This document shows positions 11,830 to 32,423 of a stretch of 36,343 nucleotides of DNA, one piece after another. Made by a program: the position numbers and the translations under genes. Under the pieces are notes generated by a model. It had not been told where the DNA came from and did no database searches. It was given only the letters and a program-made list of their open reading frames with translations. Source of the stretch: Bacillus sp. (in: firmicutes) (lineage in GTDB: Bacteria > Bacillota > Clostridia > Lachnospirales > Lachnospiraceae); NCBI GenBank assembly GCA_023666125.1, contig JAMPCN010000020.1, positions 1 to 36,343 of the forward strand, in the 5' to 3' direction. The first letter of the stretch is position 1; each line of letters starts with the position of its first letter.

Positions 11830-12163
11830 TGCTTATCATGGCTGAGAAAGGAGCATGGATATAAAAATGGAGCAATAATCTGCTTTTGAAACATGAAGAT
11901 GAAAAAACGGGAAAACATTTGCATGATTGCGTAGAATGTTTGTTTTTTGTCATGTTGCCAAAAGTGGGTTATGTTTCCGGACTTCCCTCTTTTTTTCGTG
12001 TTATTTTATCATAATCTTTAAAATAGTTTACATTGGAAAGAGCAGGAATCGGGTAAGAAACATGATGCAGAATCGTTTGGCGGCGGACGGTTCTTTTTTT
12101 TGCGCGGTCATAGGAGACGAAATCGGCTGCGGTTTCGTGTATGGTAAGGAAAGGCGGGTATCT
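11830..12163 (+). promoter_or_regulatory. 334-bp leader of the ABC-F gene with candidate attenuator
   Basis: No full gene is seen here. A tiny frame at 11855-11878 reads MDIKMEQ; an AAAGGAG is nearby but too close to its first ATG. A hairpin pairs 11913-11919 with 11935-11941 and is followed by T residues at 11943-11948; it could end the reductase transcript or act as an attenuator. A second T run lies at 11988-11996, and a possible -10 box TAAAAT at 12019-12024 has no good -35. The ABC-F frame stays open upstream to 11927, with an ATG at 12061, but the good start is 12164. Leaders with attenuation are common for antibiotic-resistance ABC-F genes; here it is only inference. Confidence 0.4.
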
Positions 12164-13768
12164 ATGGCGAAAATTAATGTATCGAATCTTACTTTCTGCT
12201 ATGAGGGCAGTTTTGACAATATTTTTGAAAATGTATCTTTTTCTATTGATACGGACTGGAAACTGGGGTTTATCGGAAGAAACGGTAAGGGAAAGACGAC
12301 TTTTTTAAATCTTTTAATGGACAAATATGAGTATCGGGGCAGCATACAGACCTCCGTGGCATTTGATTATTTTCCTTATCAGGTGAGTGAAGAACAGATG
12401 AAAAGCTGCGCCGCTGATTTTTGTGACGAGCTTGCGTCGGATTTGGAGCTGTGGAGAATCCTGATGGAGATGGAGAAAATGGGGATGGATGCCGAGCTTC
12501 TATACCGTCCGTTTCAGGCGCTTAGCCACGGGGAACGAACCAGAGTGATGCTTGCCGTTTTGTTTTCCAGAGATAATTATTTCTTATTAATCGACGAACC
12601 GACCAATCATCTGGATAGAAAGTCGCGGGAGATAATCAAGGAATATCTGCGAAAAAAGCAGGGATTTTTGCTGGTATCGCACGACAGGGATTTGCTGGAT
12701 GCCTGCATAGACCATATTCTTGTACTGAACAGGGTGTCAATCGAGGTGCAGAAAGGTAATTTTTCCTCCTGGTGGGAGAATAAGAGCCGCATGGACGCCT
12801 TTCATGAGGCGGAAAATGAAAAACACCGCAAAGAAATCGGCAAGTTACAGGAAGCGGCAAGGCGCGCCGACGGATGGGCGCAGAAAAATGAAGATAGTAA
12901 AATTGGATATGACCCGATTAAGGAACATGACCGTTCTTTGGACACAAGGGCTTATATTGGCGCAAAGACAAAGGCGATGCAGAAGCGCGTCAAACAGATG
13001 CAGGTAAGAATTGCGCATGAAATCGAGGAAAAAGAGGGACTTTTGCAGGATATTGAAAATCCGGCGGATTTAAAAATCATGCCGCTTGTCCATCATAAGA
13101 ACATCCTTATCCGGGTGCAGAAATATGGACTTTCTTACGGGGAACACGGCGTTTTACAGGAGTTTGATTTTACGCTCCAACAGGGCGAGCGCGTGCTTTT
13201 GTGCGGGGCAAACGGCAGCGGAAAGTCCAGCTTTATTAAGGCGGTGCTGCGAAGATGCGGGGCGCAGGGGGCGGAAGAGATGCAGAGTCCGAAAGAGCGG
13301 CGGAGTGTGGAGACTGCCATGCAGGGTGCGGGTATCGCGGCAGGAAACGGCACGGTGCGGGATGGCATAATAGAAAACGGCGTGCTGCAGACCGCAAGCG
13401 GGCTTATTATATCTTATGTAAACCAAGATGCTTCATACCTCAAAGGGGATTTAAAGGGTTTCTGTCAGAAAGAAAATTTGGAGGAAAGCCTGTTAAAAGC
13501 CATTCTGCGCCAGCTCGATTTCGAGCGGATTCAGTTTGGCAAACGGATGGAGGAGTATTCGGAGGGACAGAAGAAAAAGGTCTTGATTGCCGCCAGCCTG
13601 TTAAAGCGCGCGCATTTGTATATCTGGGATGAACCGCTTAATTACATCGACGTTTTTTCCCGGATGCAGATAGAGGAGCTTATCCTGCGCTATCAGCCGA
13701 CGATGTTATTAGTGGAGCATGACGTGCGTTTTCAGGAGAAAGTGGCGACGAGGGTGGTGGAGTTCTGA
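12164..13768 (+). CDS. Lsa-like ABC-F family ribosomal protection ATPase
   Basis: A 534-residue protein with two ABC ATPase domains and no membrane segment. Domain 1 has Walker A GRNGKGKTT, signature LSHGERTRVML and Walker B FLLIDEPTNHLD; domain 2 has CGANGSGKSS, YSEGQKKKVL and LYIWDEPLNYID. The N-terminus (SNLTFCYEGSFDNIFENVSF, then TDWKLGFIGRNGKGKTTFLN) closely resembles Lsa-type proteins, which displace lincosamides, streptogramin A and pleuromutilins from the ribosome. Whether this one confers resistance is not shown. ATG 12164 follows AAGGAAAGGCGGG. A Gly/Ala/Glu-rich insertion of about 40 residues (nt ~13261-13380) lies between Walker A and the Q-loop of domain 2, making it longer than typical Lsa proteins (~490-500 aa). 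Confidence 0.87.
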   Translation: MAKINVSNLTFCYEGSFDNIFENVSFSIDTDWKLGFIGRNGKGKTTFLNLLMDKYEYRGSIQTSVAFDYFPYQVSEEQMKSCAADFCDELASDLELWRILMEMEKMGMDAELLYRPFQALSHGERTRVMLAVLFSRDNYFLLIDEPTNHLDRKSREIIKEYLRKKQGFLLVSHDRDLLDACIDHILVLNRVSIEVQKGNFSSWWENKSRMDAFHEAENEKHRKEIGKLQEAARRADGWAQKNEDSKIGYDPIKEHDRSLDTRAYIGAKTKAMQKRVKQMQVRIAHEIEEKEGLLQDIENPADLKIMPLVHHKNILIRVQKYGLSYGEHGVLQEFDFTLQQGERVLLCGANGSGKSSFIKAVLRRCGAQGAEEMQSPKERRSVETAMQGAGIAAGNGTVRDGIIENGVLQTASGLIISYVNQDASYLKGDLKGFCQKENLEESLLKAILRQLDFERIQFGKRMEEYSEGQKKKVLIAASLLKRAHLYIWDEPLNYIDVFSRMQIEELILRYQPTMLLVEHDVRFQEKVATRVVEF

Positions 13769-29066: not shown

Positions 29067-29128
29067 TGTGATTCAGTTCATTTGATTAACGAAATGAATG
29101 CGTGCTGGTAGAAAGGCATGGTTGTGAA

Positions 29129-31963
29129 ATGGATAGAAAGAAACTTGTCATTGGAATTTTAGCGCATGTAGATTCGGGAAAAACAACATTAGCGGAAAGT
29201 ATGCTCTATATAAGCGGCAGTATCCGCACGGCGGGCAGGGTAGACCACGGGGATACTTTTCTGGATACGGACGTTCAGGAGAGGGCGAGGGGAATCACTA
29301 TTTTCTCCAAACAGGCGCAGTTTTCCTGGAAAGAAATGGATATTACGCTCTTAGATACGCCGGGGCATGTGGATTTTTCGGCGGAGATGGAAAGGACGCT
29401 TCAGGTTTTAGATTACGCGGTTTTAGTCATAAGCGGCGCGGACGGGGTACAGGAACATACCGTAACCTTATGGAGGCTGTTAAAAAAATACCGGATTCCG
29501 GTCTTTCTTTTTGTGAATAAGATGGATCAGCCGGGCGCGGACAGGCAAAGCCTGATGCAGGATATCGAAAAAAGGCTGAGCGGGCAGTGCGTTGATTTTA
29601 CGTCGGATGGTGAGACGGAAAAAAGAAAAAAGGCGCAGGCAGAAAAGAAGATGCAGGATGGCGGAAGGGAGTCAGAAGAAAAGGCGCGGGATGACGGTAT
29701 CGTCGGAGAACTGGCCGAAAACATTGCAGTTTGTGATGAAAAGATTTTGGAAAGCTATTTAGAGCGTGGCAGCGTAAGCCGGCAGGAGACGGCGGCGTTA
29801 GTAAGTAAAAGGCGGCTGTTTCCCTGTTACTTTGGTTCGGCGTTAAAAATAGAGGGCGTAGAGGAATTATTGGATGGTATTTTGCAATATACGGAAACGC
29901 CCCAATATCCGCCTGAATTTGGCGCAAGAGTATATAAAATCGGCAGAGACAGCGCAGGAAACCGTCTTACGTATATGAAGATTACCGGAGGCAGTCTGCA
30001 CCCGAAGCAAGTGATTACGGGAAAAGAGAAAGAGTGGGAGGAAAAGACAGACCAGATTCGGATTTATTCCGGCAGTAAGTATAAATTGGAAAAAGAAGCC
30101 CCGGCAGGAACGGTTTGTGCAGTAACCGGACTTAGCCGGACTTTTTCAGGGGAGGGGCTGGGTGTGGAAAAAAATGCCGCCGCTCCGCTGTTAGCGCCCG
30201 TTATGACATACCGCGTCATCTTGCCGCCCGAAGAGGATGTGCATACGGCATATAAGAAGTTATGTCAACTTGAAGAGGAGGAACCTCTTTTGCATATCGT
30301 CTGGAAAGAGCAGCTTGAAGAAATTCATGCGCAGTTAATGGGCGAGGTGCAGATAGATATTTTAAAGAATATGATAAAAGAGCGGTTTGATATGACGGTG
30401 GAATTTGACGTTGGCAGCATCGTTTATAAGGAGACCATCCGGCAGAAAGCGGAGGGAGTAGGGCATTTTGAGCCGCTTCGCCACTACGCGGAAGTGCATC
30501 TGATACTGGAACCGGGAGAACCGGGCAGCGGGCTTATCTTTGATACAATATGCAGCGAGGATACGCTGGATAGAAACTGGCAGCGTCTTGTGCTGACGCA
30601 TCTGGAAGAGAAAGAGCATCGGGGCCTTTTAACCGGCGCGCCGATTACGGATATGAAGATTACGCTGGCGGCGGGCAGGGCGCATATCAAACATACCGAG
30701 GGCGGTGATTTCAGGCAGGCGACTTACCGCGCGCTGCGCCAGGGGCTTCATAAGGCGGACTGTGTGTTGTTGGAACCGGTCTATGAATTCCGTCTGGAAC
30801 TTCCGCAGACCATGATAGGGCGTGCCATGTCGGATATCCGGGCAAGATACGGGCGGTTTGACGCGCCGGTTACGGACGGGGAGATTTCCGTCCTGACAGG
30901 AACGGTTCCCGCTTCCGAAATGCAGGATTATCAAACGGAAGTGATGACATACTCCGGCGGGCGTGGCAGGCTTAGTTGTACGTTAAAAGGCTATGAACCG
31001 TGCCATAATGAAAAAGAGGTTATCGAGGCTGCCGGATATGATGCGGAGCGAGATACGGACAACCCGTCTTCTTCCGTGTTCTGTTCACACGGAGCGGGAA
31101 TGGTTGTGCCATGGCAGGATGTGGAAAAGTATATGCATATAGAGAGTGTTTTGGCAAAAGAAGCCCCTTTGGATGAAAAGCAGTCCGGAAACCGCCATAC
31201 CGACACGGATGTCAGAACAAAACCGTCTATCGAAGTCAATGAAAAAGAATTAGAAGAGATATTTAAACGTACCTATGCCAGCGGCTCCGGCAGGGGCGGA
31301 TGGAATAAAGCGAAAGGTCGCGCGCGCGAAAAGGGAACGGATAGCGCGGGCGGCGCAGGAAGGACGGCGGAAGCAAAAGTTATCCGCGCAGAGCAGACGG
31401 ATGGAAGCGAAAAAAAGAGCCAAAGCAAATTGACTGATATGGTCAACAAAGAATATCTGCTCGTGGACGGCTATAATATCATCTTTGCATGGGAAGAATT
31501 AAGCGAGCTGGCAAAAGTGAACTTAGACAGCGCCAGAGGAAGGCTGATGGATATCCTAAGCAACTATCAGGGCTATCGGAAGATGACGTTAATCCTTGTA
31601 TTTGACGCCTATAAGGTCAAGGGCAGTCCGGGAAGCATTTCCGCTTATCATAATATCTATGTCGTATATACGAAAGAAGCGGAAACCGCCGACCAGTATA
31701 TAGAAAAGGCGACGCATGAAATTGCCGGGAAAAATCAGGTGACGGTAGCGACGTCGGACGGACTTGAGCAGCTTATCATTATGGGGCAGGGGGCAAGGCG
31801 CATGTCCGCAAGAGAATTGAAAGAAGATATTATGTCAACCAATCAGGAACTGCGGGAACTGTTTTTAGATAAGCAGACAGGAGGCAGGCAGTATTTACTG
31901 GATGCGCTTCCGGAGGAGATGGCAAAGCATATGGAAGCGATAAGATTGGGAAAGGAGGTGTGA
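29129..31963 (+). CDS. Tet(M)/EF-G-like GTPase fused to a NYN (YacP/Rae1-like) nuclease domain
   Basis: A 944-residue cytoplasmic fusion. Residues ~1-645 are a translation-factor GTPase of the Tet(M) ribosomal-protection type: G1 AHVDSGKT (12-19), G3 DTPGH (76-80), G4 NKMD (130-133), followed by EF-G domains II-V (domain IV contains HTEGGDFRQATYRALRQGL). A charged linker (~690-770) leads to a NYN domain (~776-910) with its acidic set: Asp780 (LLVDGYNII), Asp826 (LVFDAYKV), Asp855 (TADQYIEKAT) and Asp877 (TSDGLEQL). YacP is Rae1, a ribosome-associated nuclease that cuts mRNA in the A site. ATG 29129 is chosen to begin MDRKKLVIGILAHVDSGKTT; an open frame reaches back to GTG 29102. Tetracycline resistance is not shown. 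It is followed 4 bases later by the Mrp operon. Confidence 0.88.
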   Translation: MDRKKLVIGILAHVDSGKTTLAESMLYISGSIRTAGRVDHGDTFLDTDVQERARGITIFSKQAQFSWKEMDITLLDTPGHVDFSAEMERTLQVLDYAVLVISGADGVQEHTVTLWRLLKKYRIPVFLFVNKMDQPGADRQSLMQDIEKRLSGQCVDFTSDGETEKRKKAQAEKKMQDGGRESEEKARDDGIVGELAENIAVCDEKILESYLERGSVSRQETAALVSKRRLFPCYFGSALKIEGVEELLDGILQYTETPQYPPEFGARVYKIGRDSAGNRLTYMKITGGSLHPKQVITGKEKEWEEKTDQIRIYSGSKYKLEKEAPAGTVCAVTGLSRTFSGEGLGVEKNAAAPLLAPVMTYRVILPPEEDVHTAYKKLCQLEEEEPLLHIVWKEQLEEIHAQLMGEVQIDILKNMIKERFDMTVEFDVGSIVYKETIRQKAEGVGHFEPLRHYAEVHLILEPGEPGSGLIFDTICSEDTLDRNWQRLVLTHLEEKEHRGLLTGAPITDMKITLAAGRAHIKHTEGGDFRQATYRALRQGLHKADCVLLEPVYEFRLELPQTMIGRAMSDIRARYGRFDAPVTDGEISVLTGTVPASEMQDYQTEVMTYSGGRGRLSCTLKGYEPCHNEKEVIEAAGYDAERDTDNPSSSVFCSHGAGMVVPWQDVEKYMHIESVLAKEAPLDEKQSGNRHTDTDVRTKPSIEVNEKELEEIFKRTYASGSGRGGWNKAKGRAREKGTDSAGGAGRTAEAKVIRAEQTDGSEKKSQSKLTDMVNKEYLLVDGYNIIFAWEELSELAKVNLDSARGRLMDILSNYQGYRKMTLILVFDAYKVKGSPGSISAYHNIYVVYTKEAETADQYIEKATHEIAGKNQVTVATSDGLEQLIIMGQGARRMSARELKEDIMSTNQELRELFLDKQTGGRQYLLDALPEEMAKHMEAIRLGKEV

Positions 31964-31967
31964 GGAA

Positions 31968-32423
31968 ATGTATTTACTGTATTTTTTATTATGGGTTATC
32001 TTTAACGGGAATTTTACGTTGGAAATTGCGGTATTCGGCGTTATCATCGCGGCGGCGCTCTTTGCGTTTACCTGTAAATTTACGGATTACAGCATTGCCG
32101 CGGAAAAGAAAATACTTTGTAATTTTTTCCGCCTGCTGCATTATGTATTTGTGCTTGTGATAGAGATTGTGAAAGCCAATTTTGCGGTTATCCGTTTCAT
32201 TTTATCGGAAAAAGAGGAAGTGCAGCCCGCGCTGGTAACTTTTAAAGCGGATATACAAACGTCGATGGGGCGTGCGGCCTTGGCGAATGCTATTACCCTG
32301 ACGCCGGGTACGATTACGGTGCTTTTGGATGATAATACCTATACCGTACACTGTCTGGATGAGACGCTCGCCGAGGGACTCGATAAATCCGTATTTGTGG
32401 ATATGATTAAAAAGTGCGAATAG
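31968..32423 (+). CDS. mnhE: Mrp/Mnh-type Na+/H+ antiporter subunit E
   Basis: A 151-residue MnhE-family protein: two membrane helices at the start (FLLWVIFNGNFTLEIAVFG, then VIIAAALFAFTC), a third near 50-70, and the conserved cytoplasmic domain with GRAALANAITLTPGTITVLL. MnhE is a small subunit of a multi-subunit cation/proton antiporter that also resembles complex I. GGAGGTGTGAGGAA precedes the ATG, which lies 4 bases after the GTPase-nuclease stop. It opens the antiporter operon. Confidence 0.93.
   Translation: MYLLYFLLWVIFNGNFTLEIAVFGVIIAAALFAFTCKFTDYSIAAEKKILCNFFRLLHYVFVLVIEIVKANFAVIRFILSEKEEVQPALVTFKADIQTSMGRAALANAITLTPGTITVLLDDNTYTVHCLDETLAEGLDKSVFVDMIKKCE

Follow-up and report, generated by a model that had tools for sequence, protein, structure and literature searches.

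EF-G and the tetracycline resistance protein TetM place their domain IV in the decoding centre of the ribosome. TetM is described as binding the A site of tetracycline-stalled ribosomes, where loop III of domain IV reaches the drug (PMC7456112). Rae1, the YacP protein of Bacillus subtilis (5mq8 and 5mq9), is reported as an endonuclease that cuts mRNA in the A site; it is a stand-alone protein of about 170 aa, encoded by a gene that adjoins rlmB (yacO in this species) and is co-transcribed with it (PMC6613710). The same report describes a swarming defect of an efp mutant, in which there is more pausing at proline runs, that is suppressed by losing either Rae1 or YacO (PMC6613710).

Both types of domain have previously been seen in one chain. 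Atkinson 2015 described Tet proteins carrying a YacP-like NYN domain in ten Clostridiales species, and suggested a resistance mechanism involving an RNase (PMC4342817). The protein studied here combines a Tet-like GTPase with a YacP-like NYN domain, in the same architecture and in the same group of organisms; the published account assigned its fusions to Tet, whereas here they fall in a separate subfamily that is near-core in one family and found throughout the class. The earlier note on this DNA supposed that similar fusions might be annotated and named no described function for them; the architecture itself had been published in 2015, with resistance as a suggested role. What is new here is the subfamily reassignment, the scale of the distribution, the displacement of yacP and the conservation of residues. 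Searches of the open-access PMC literature listed no functional study of the fusion. A comparable logic, joining a part that recognises ribosomes to an mRNA nuclease or splitting activity, is described for the rescue and no-go decay factors SmrB/MutS2 and yeast Cue2 with Dom34-Hbs1, although the domains described for them are unrelated to those of the fused protein.

Architecture and conservation of the fused protein

The window, which is the whole stretch of 36,343 nucleotides that was analysed, contains one unbroken ORF of 944 aa on the + strand, running from an ATG at 29129 to a TGA ending at 31963. An in-frame GTG at 29102 is the upstream alternative start; the ATG agrees with homologues and has an AGAAAGG motif about 12 nt upstream. 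The parts of the gene are as follows, with the basis for each in brackets.

29129..31963, + strand: fused gene, 944 aa (ORF and Pfam)
29129..31018, + strand: EF2-family translational GTPase, residues 1-630, with G domain and domains II-V (Pfam, PDB sequence search, alignment)
30626..30721, + strand: region of domain IV tip loop III, residues 500-531, with the signature HIKHTEGGDFR at 519-529 (alignment)
31019..31144, + strand: conserved C-terminal tail of the GTPase, residues 631-672, SSVFCSHGAGMVVPWQDVEKYMH (alignment, AlphaFold2)
31145..31450, + strand: variable, mostly disordered linker, residues 673-774 (alignment, AlphaFold2)
31451..31945, + strand: YacP/Rae1-type NYN (PIN-like) endoribonuclease domain, residues 775-939, with D780, D826, D855 and D877 (Pfam, PDB, alignment)

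Pfam matches to GTP_EFTU (residues 6-256, 1.5e-53), EFG_IV (430-543) and EFG_C (546-629) exceed their cut-offs, while those to EF-G domains II and III are below theirs. The GTPase motifs G1 (AHVDSGKTT), G3 (DTPGH, with H80) and G4 (NKMD) are intact. At the other end of the protein, residues 777-939 match NYN_YacP (PF05991) at 2.6e-51, with 174 bits against a cut-off of 24.6, and a PDB sequence search matches this part to the solved B. subtilis YacP (5mq9, 2.4e-27), with which it shares the NYN residues; the likeness of the C-terminus to Rae1/YacP proposed in the earlier note is therefore upheld. With one ORF and Pfam and PDB matches to both halves, the fusion with intact motifs that the note had described is also established, and the two-part architecture of 29129-31963 is confirmed not to be due to chance.

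Conservation was assessed in an alignment of 43 intact fused proteins from many families, plus the GTPase portion of a single gene that is split. K18, D76, H80, K131 and D133 are present in 44/44 GTPase parts and N130 in 43; D780, N783, D826, T848, D855, E859, D877 and Q881 are found in all 43 intact fused proteins, and R803 in 41 of their NYN domains. The same NYN residues occur in 19/19 stand-alone YacP proteins and in B. subtilis Rae1, which thus matches the NYN domain over its full length and in its invariant D, N, D, D, E, D and Q residues; it differs in its lack of a GTPase. Asp780 and Asp826 lie where the earlier note had placed them; together with Asp855 and Asp877 they are invariant, and the loss of acidic residues across homologues that the note had named as counter-evidence is not seen. 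This shows that the predicted catalytic residues of both halves are intact and conserved.

An AlphaFold2 model based on 24 fused sequences has residues 1-678 and 775-939 folded, with pLDDT below 50 at 679-704 and 716-771 (mean pLDDT 74.8); with a pTM of 0.50, this model does not fix where the NYN domain sits relative to the GTPase. The best 50 Foldseek matches listed for the whole structure all belong to the EF2 family (EF-G and relatives), with TetM at rank 48. Across fused homologues the linker is 63-120 aa long and poorly conserved, except for one short helix. This helix, ELEEIFKRTYA at about residues 705-716 (31241-31276), is a possible docking motif.

The next gene is mnhE (31951-32423), encoding an Mrp antiporter subunit. 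It begins 4 nt past the fused stop, with AAAGGAGGTG of mnhE sitting within the fused ORF, and is not a conserved neighbour.

Affiliation of the GTPase

The GTPase had been taken for a Tet(M)/EF-G-like factor of the Tet(M) type; the EF-G/Tet-like fold and motifs stand, while the Tet(M)-type assignment does not, as the GTPase forms its own subfamily and is equally close to EF-G. In the PDB sequence search it is as near to TetM (2.7e-76) as to EF-G (5.4e-76). Among NCBIfam models the Tet model NF012153 matches it best, giving 437 bits where the cut-off is 775; eight relatives from outside the Tet clade score 378-512 bits on this model, and the true Tet(W) of genome G218 scores 820. EF-G has the same domain order and GTPase motifs, scores equally with TetM and provides the top fold matches, but the fused protein is below the cut-offs of the EF-G models (311.6 against 659.4 for TIGR00484, and 359.6 against 583).

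In a tree of 55 rows, 27 fused and 16 unfused GTPases form one clade (SH-aLRT 99) apart from the Tet clade (97) and from EF-G. The split from Tet was repeated with other rows (SH-aLRT 99; in a further tree 94, or 99 once the long row L131 is left out), these being quick trees with long branches and SH-aLRT support rather than bootstrap. Tip loop III reads HxKHTEGGDFR in nearly all subfamily members, fused and unfused: H522, T523, D527 and F528 are present in 44/44 aligned sequences, while G525 and G526 vary in two each. By contrast, loop III is YYSPVSTPADFR in TetM, TetO, TetW and TetS, and YHDVDSSEMAF in EF-G. The fused protein has HIKHTEGGDFRQ in place of the Tet loop, and the tail SVFC...YMH in place of the Tet C-terminal PRRPNSR. 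This tail, with variants, ends the unfused members, and the linker of fused members begins at the same tail; the C-terminus of TetM is different. The four Tet proteins have the EF-G-like five-domain GTPase in common with the fused protein (about 30% identity), but lie in another clade, are mostly mobile and have no nuclease. Since clade, loop, tail and scores differ, the fused and unfused GTPases are placed in a subfamily of their own beside Tet; Tet membership is rejected on the score below cut-off, the separate clade and the distinct tip loop. These comparisons show the GTPase, as judged from its sequence, to be a separate subfamily, equally close to EF-G and TetM.

Protection against tetracycline or another drug with an extra RNase step, as Atkinson 2015 suggested, would be a quite unlikely function, and less likely than the mRNA endonuclease reading set out below. 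The overall fold is common to both and the Tet model is the top NCBIfam match, but the score lies beneath a cut-off that a true Tet(W) of the same family passes. An unfused relative on a Ligilactobacillus salivarius megaplasmid is annotated as TetM-family, whereas the subfamily as a whole is a separate clade and the fused protein has neither the Tet loop nor the Tet C-terminus. The different loop does not exclude drug removal, because TetM is cited as retaining activity when its loop III carries alanine changes (PMC4750697); against such a role, the gene is near-core and single-copy, and acquired tet genes are co-resident with it (for instance in G189 and G482-type genomes). The separate clade, own tip loop, scores below Tet cut-offs and near-core chromosomal position also favour the view of the earlier note that this is something other than simple tetracycline resistance.

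The L. salivarius protein (L145, 5983-7917) is a 644-aa GTPase without the Tet loop, which one tree places with the fused clade. Close to Tet, a third EF2-family group was also observed, whose loop is HxxHTHPxDF (L139, L180 and L183, in G094, G382 and G441).

Distribution of the fusion

The family sample of 298 genomes consisted of genomes at least 90% complete and the window's own assembly, which is 88% complete. NYN_YacP was detected in 270/298. The GTPase search gave 268 matches at 1e-66; the match in G218, being a true Tet(W), was removed from the subfamily count, and a fused gene in G230 that is cut by contig ends and below the 1e-66 limit was added. The subfamily GTPase is present in 268/298 family genomes, mostly fused, and all 268 also have NYN. 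G045 and G094 have NYN without the subfamily GTPase, and 28/298 have neither, which implies that the fused gene is dispensable. In G189 the search match is Tet(W), yet a separate, divergent fused protein of 928 aa is present. A hand count of the 150 NYN_YacP matches listed for the family gave 137 in frames of at least 600 aa and 13 in frames of less than 330 aa; the short frames of G118 and G253 lie at contig starts. The fused gene is a near-core, single-copy, chromosomal gene in the window's family.

Among 294 genomes from the order, 268 have NYN_YacP and 179 a GTPase match; the three GTPase matches without NYN are two Tet-clade proteins and one fused gene cut at a contig end. The class sample of 243 genomes has a GTPase match in 108 at 1e-85, with 84 of the 113 match pieces listed lying in frames of at least 840 aa. 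Of 19 frames of this length checked across family, order and class, 18 carry NYN in one ORF, the other (G716) being stop-broken. The fusion persists across many families of the class, so that the conservation survey called for in the earlier note finds it to be widespread. In Monoglobus pectinilyticus, outside the order, the protein has 862 aa and is annotated 'translation factor GTPase family protein'.

Several irregular forms were observed. The interruption in G716 (L200) is an in-frame TAG. In G012, a genome of the window's genus, two overlapping frames of 711 and 295 aa take the place of one continuous fused gene (L072, 9496-12290), through either an assembly error or a real break. A 680-aa frame in G155 (L244, 1358-3400) has GTPase residues to about 427 and NYN, and the tblastn match ends before domain IV. 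NYN matches were also obtained in 13 unannotated phage records, which may be bacterial contigs.

Displacement of stand-alone yacP

The usual order around stand-alone yacP is cysS-mrnC-rlmB-yacP-sigH. In 19 such loci, rlmB lies directly before yacP in 13 and at any position in 14, and sigH directly after it in 12 and at any position in 13. The fused gene is not in this rlmB-yacP order, which is usual for Rae1/YacP without defining it. In 19/19 fused genomes checked, including the window's own, rlmB is present without an NYN domain within 1.5 kb, and these stretches retain mrnC in 17, cysS in 16 and sigH in 12. As to whether a separate yacP exists, a point raised in the earlier note, none was found in the window's assembly (88% complete), where PF05991 matches the fused protein alone; likewise, the fused NYN_YacP is the sole one over the cut-off in 10/10 class genomes with the fusion. 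Two NYN_YacP matches occur in some genomes, for example three of one genus (G366, G424 and G440), and in five of the family sample. In G424 one is a stand-alone NYN_YacP of 177 aa and the other lies in a fused frame truncated by a contig end. The fusion therefore usually replaces stand-alone yacP.

The fused rows nest within the unfused ones in the 55-row tree, whereas an 80-row tree has no such nesting and its starred branches force only one change. Gene order argues that stand-alone yacP came first; the tree does not decide the direction of the fusion. No family recurs at a fixed place beside the fused gene in 25 loci, none is found next to the unfused GTPase in four or more of 16 loci, and none of the 19 stand-alone yacP loci has a subfamily GTPase beside it, the weak match in L091 being another GTPase.

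The surroundings of stand-alone yacP bear on the possibility of a ribosome, rRNA or tRNA maturation factor, in which the GTPase would sense the assembly state and the NYN domain would trim rRNA or tRNA. Its neighbours are RNA enzymes (the SpoU methylase rlmB and the RNase III-like mrnC), and such a role was the first predicted for NYN domains, as quoted in PMC4342817. This function is nevertheless very unlikely, given that B. subtilis Rae1 is reported to act on mRNA in the A site and that both genes are missing from 28/298 well-completed family genomes.

Unfused GTPases and their association with YacP

An unfused GTPase is encoded elsewhere in the genome in 9/11 family genomes with stand-alone YacP, or 10/12 with the later addition of G062. 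Set against 0/28 genomes without NYN, this comparison is not one of independent observations, because a single fused gene may have been lost from the 28. Elsewhere in the order, all 23 genomes with an unlinked, unfused GTPase have YacP (hand tally; one-sided Fisher 0.045, ignoring kinship), and most genomes with stand-alone YacP are without the subfamily GTPase. Among the class genomes checked, 15 have an unfused GTPase, of which 10 have YacP and five (G707, G614, G600, G574 and G577) do not; no association was found at this level, with YacP in 10/15 against 8/18 without the GTPase (p 0.30). Strict co-occurrence, which holds in the family and order, breaks at class level and is rejected. As five of these 15 genomes have no YacP, the GTPase can persist alone, so co-occurrence is weak evidence of partnership. 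The retention of the fusion over many families, with both predicted active sites intact, is stronger evidence. Fused and unfused states were also observed within one genus (g34; G328 and G057).

These patterns could alternatively reflect two independent, uncoupled housekeeping enzymes, the linker doing no more than hold a general Rae1 next to a GTPase that has a separate role. The length and variability of the linker would allow this, as would the occurrence of either half without the other and the published activity of B. subtilis Rae1 without this GTPase; but the maintenance of the fusion over many families of the class, with GTPase core, tail and NYN all conserved, makes it unlikely.

Proposed function

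The reading we prefer, tentatively and at close to an even chance, is that the protein is a GTPase-delivered, ribosome-dependent mRNA endonuclease, performing housekeeping quality control with a single chain. Rae1 and EF-G/Tet are the basis from which we infer the expected ribosome binding, GTPase activity, mRNA cleavage with its A-site geometry, substrate and sequence of events, as well as the recognition of stalled or drug-bound ribosomes proposed in the earlier note. The EF-G/Tet-like GTPase, with its own domain IV fingertip, would bind the ribosomal factor site with the tip in the decoding centre, probably on ribosomes with a persistently empty or blocked A site. GTP hydrolysis would cause the GTPase to leave or rearrange, leaving the tethered Rae1/YacP domain locally concentrated, and the NYN domain would then cut mRNA in or beside the A site just vacated, with decay and rescue to follow. 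Because domain IV and NYN cannot share one A site, sequential action or a neighbouring ribosome would be needed; a linker of 63-120 aa would permit cleavage either after departure of the GTPase or on the neighbouring ribosome.

It is possible, if rather doubtful, that this protein, driven by GTP, serves many Clostridia as their main factor of the no-go-decay type, with the HxKHTEGGDFR fingertip sensing an unresolved A site and its own Rae1 domain cutting, such that one chain would replace separate sensor, GTPase and nuclease. If so, this would be the first case of a translational GTPase built into a ribosome-dependent nuclease, found in abundant gut bacteria with little-studied rescue pathways, and would account for the way in which a Rae1-type enzyme reaches its ribosomes. 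Annotations would then no longer count a near-core housekeeping gene as tetracycline resistance, one unfused relative being presently named TetM-family.

One further gene was noted in the window. Positions 11927-13768 encode a 613-aa protein, which we take to be ABC-F-like; the only domains found in it are two ABC domains.
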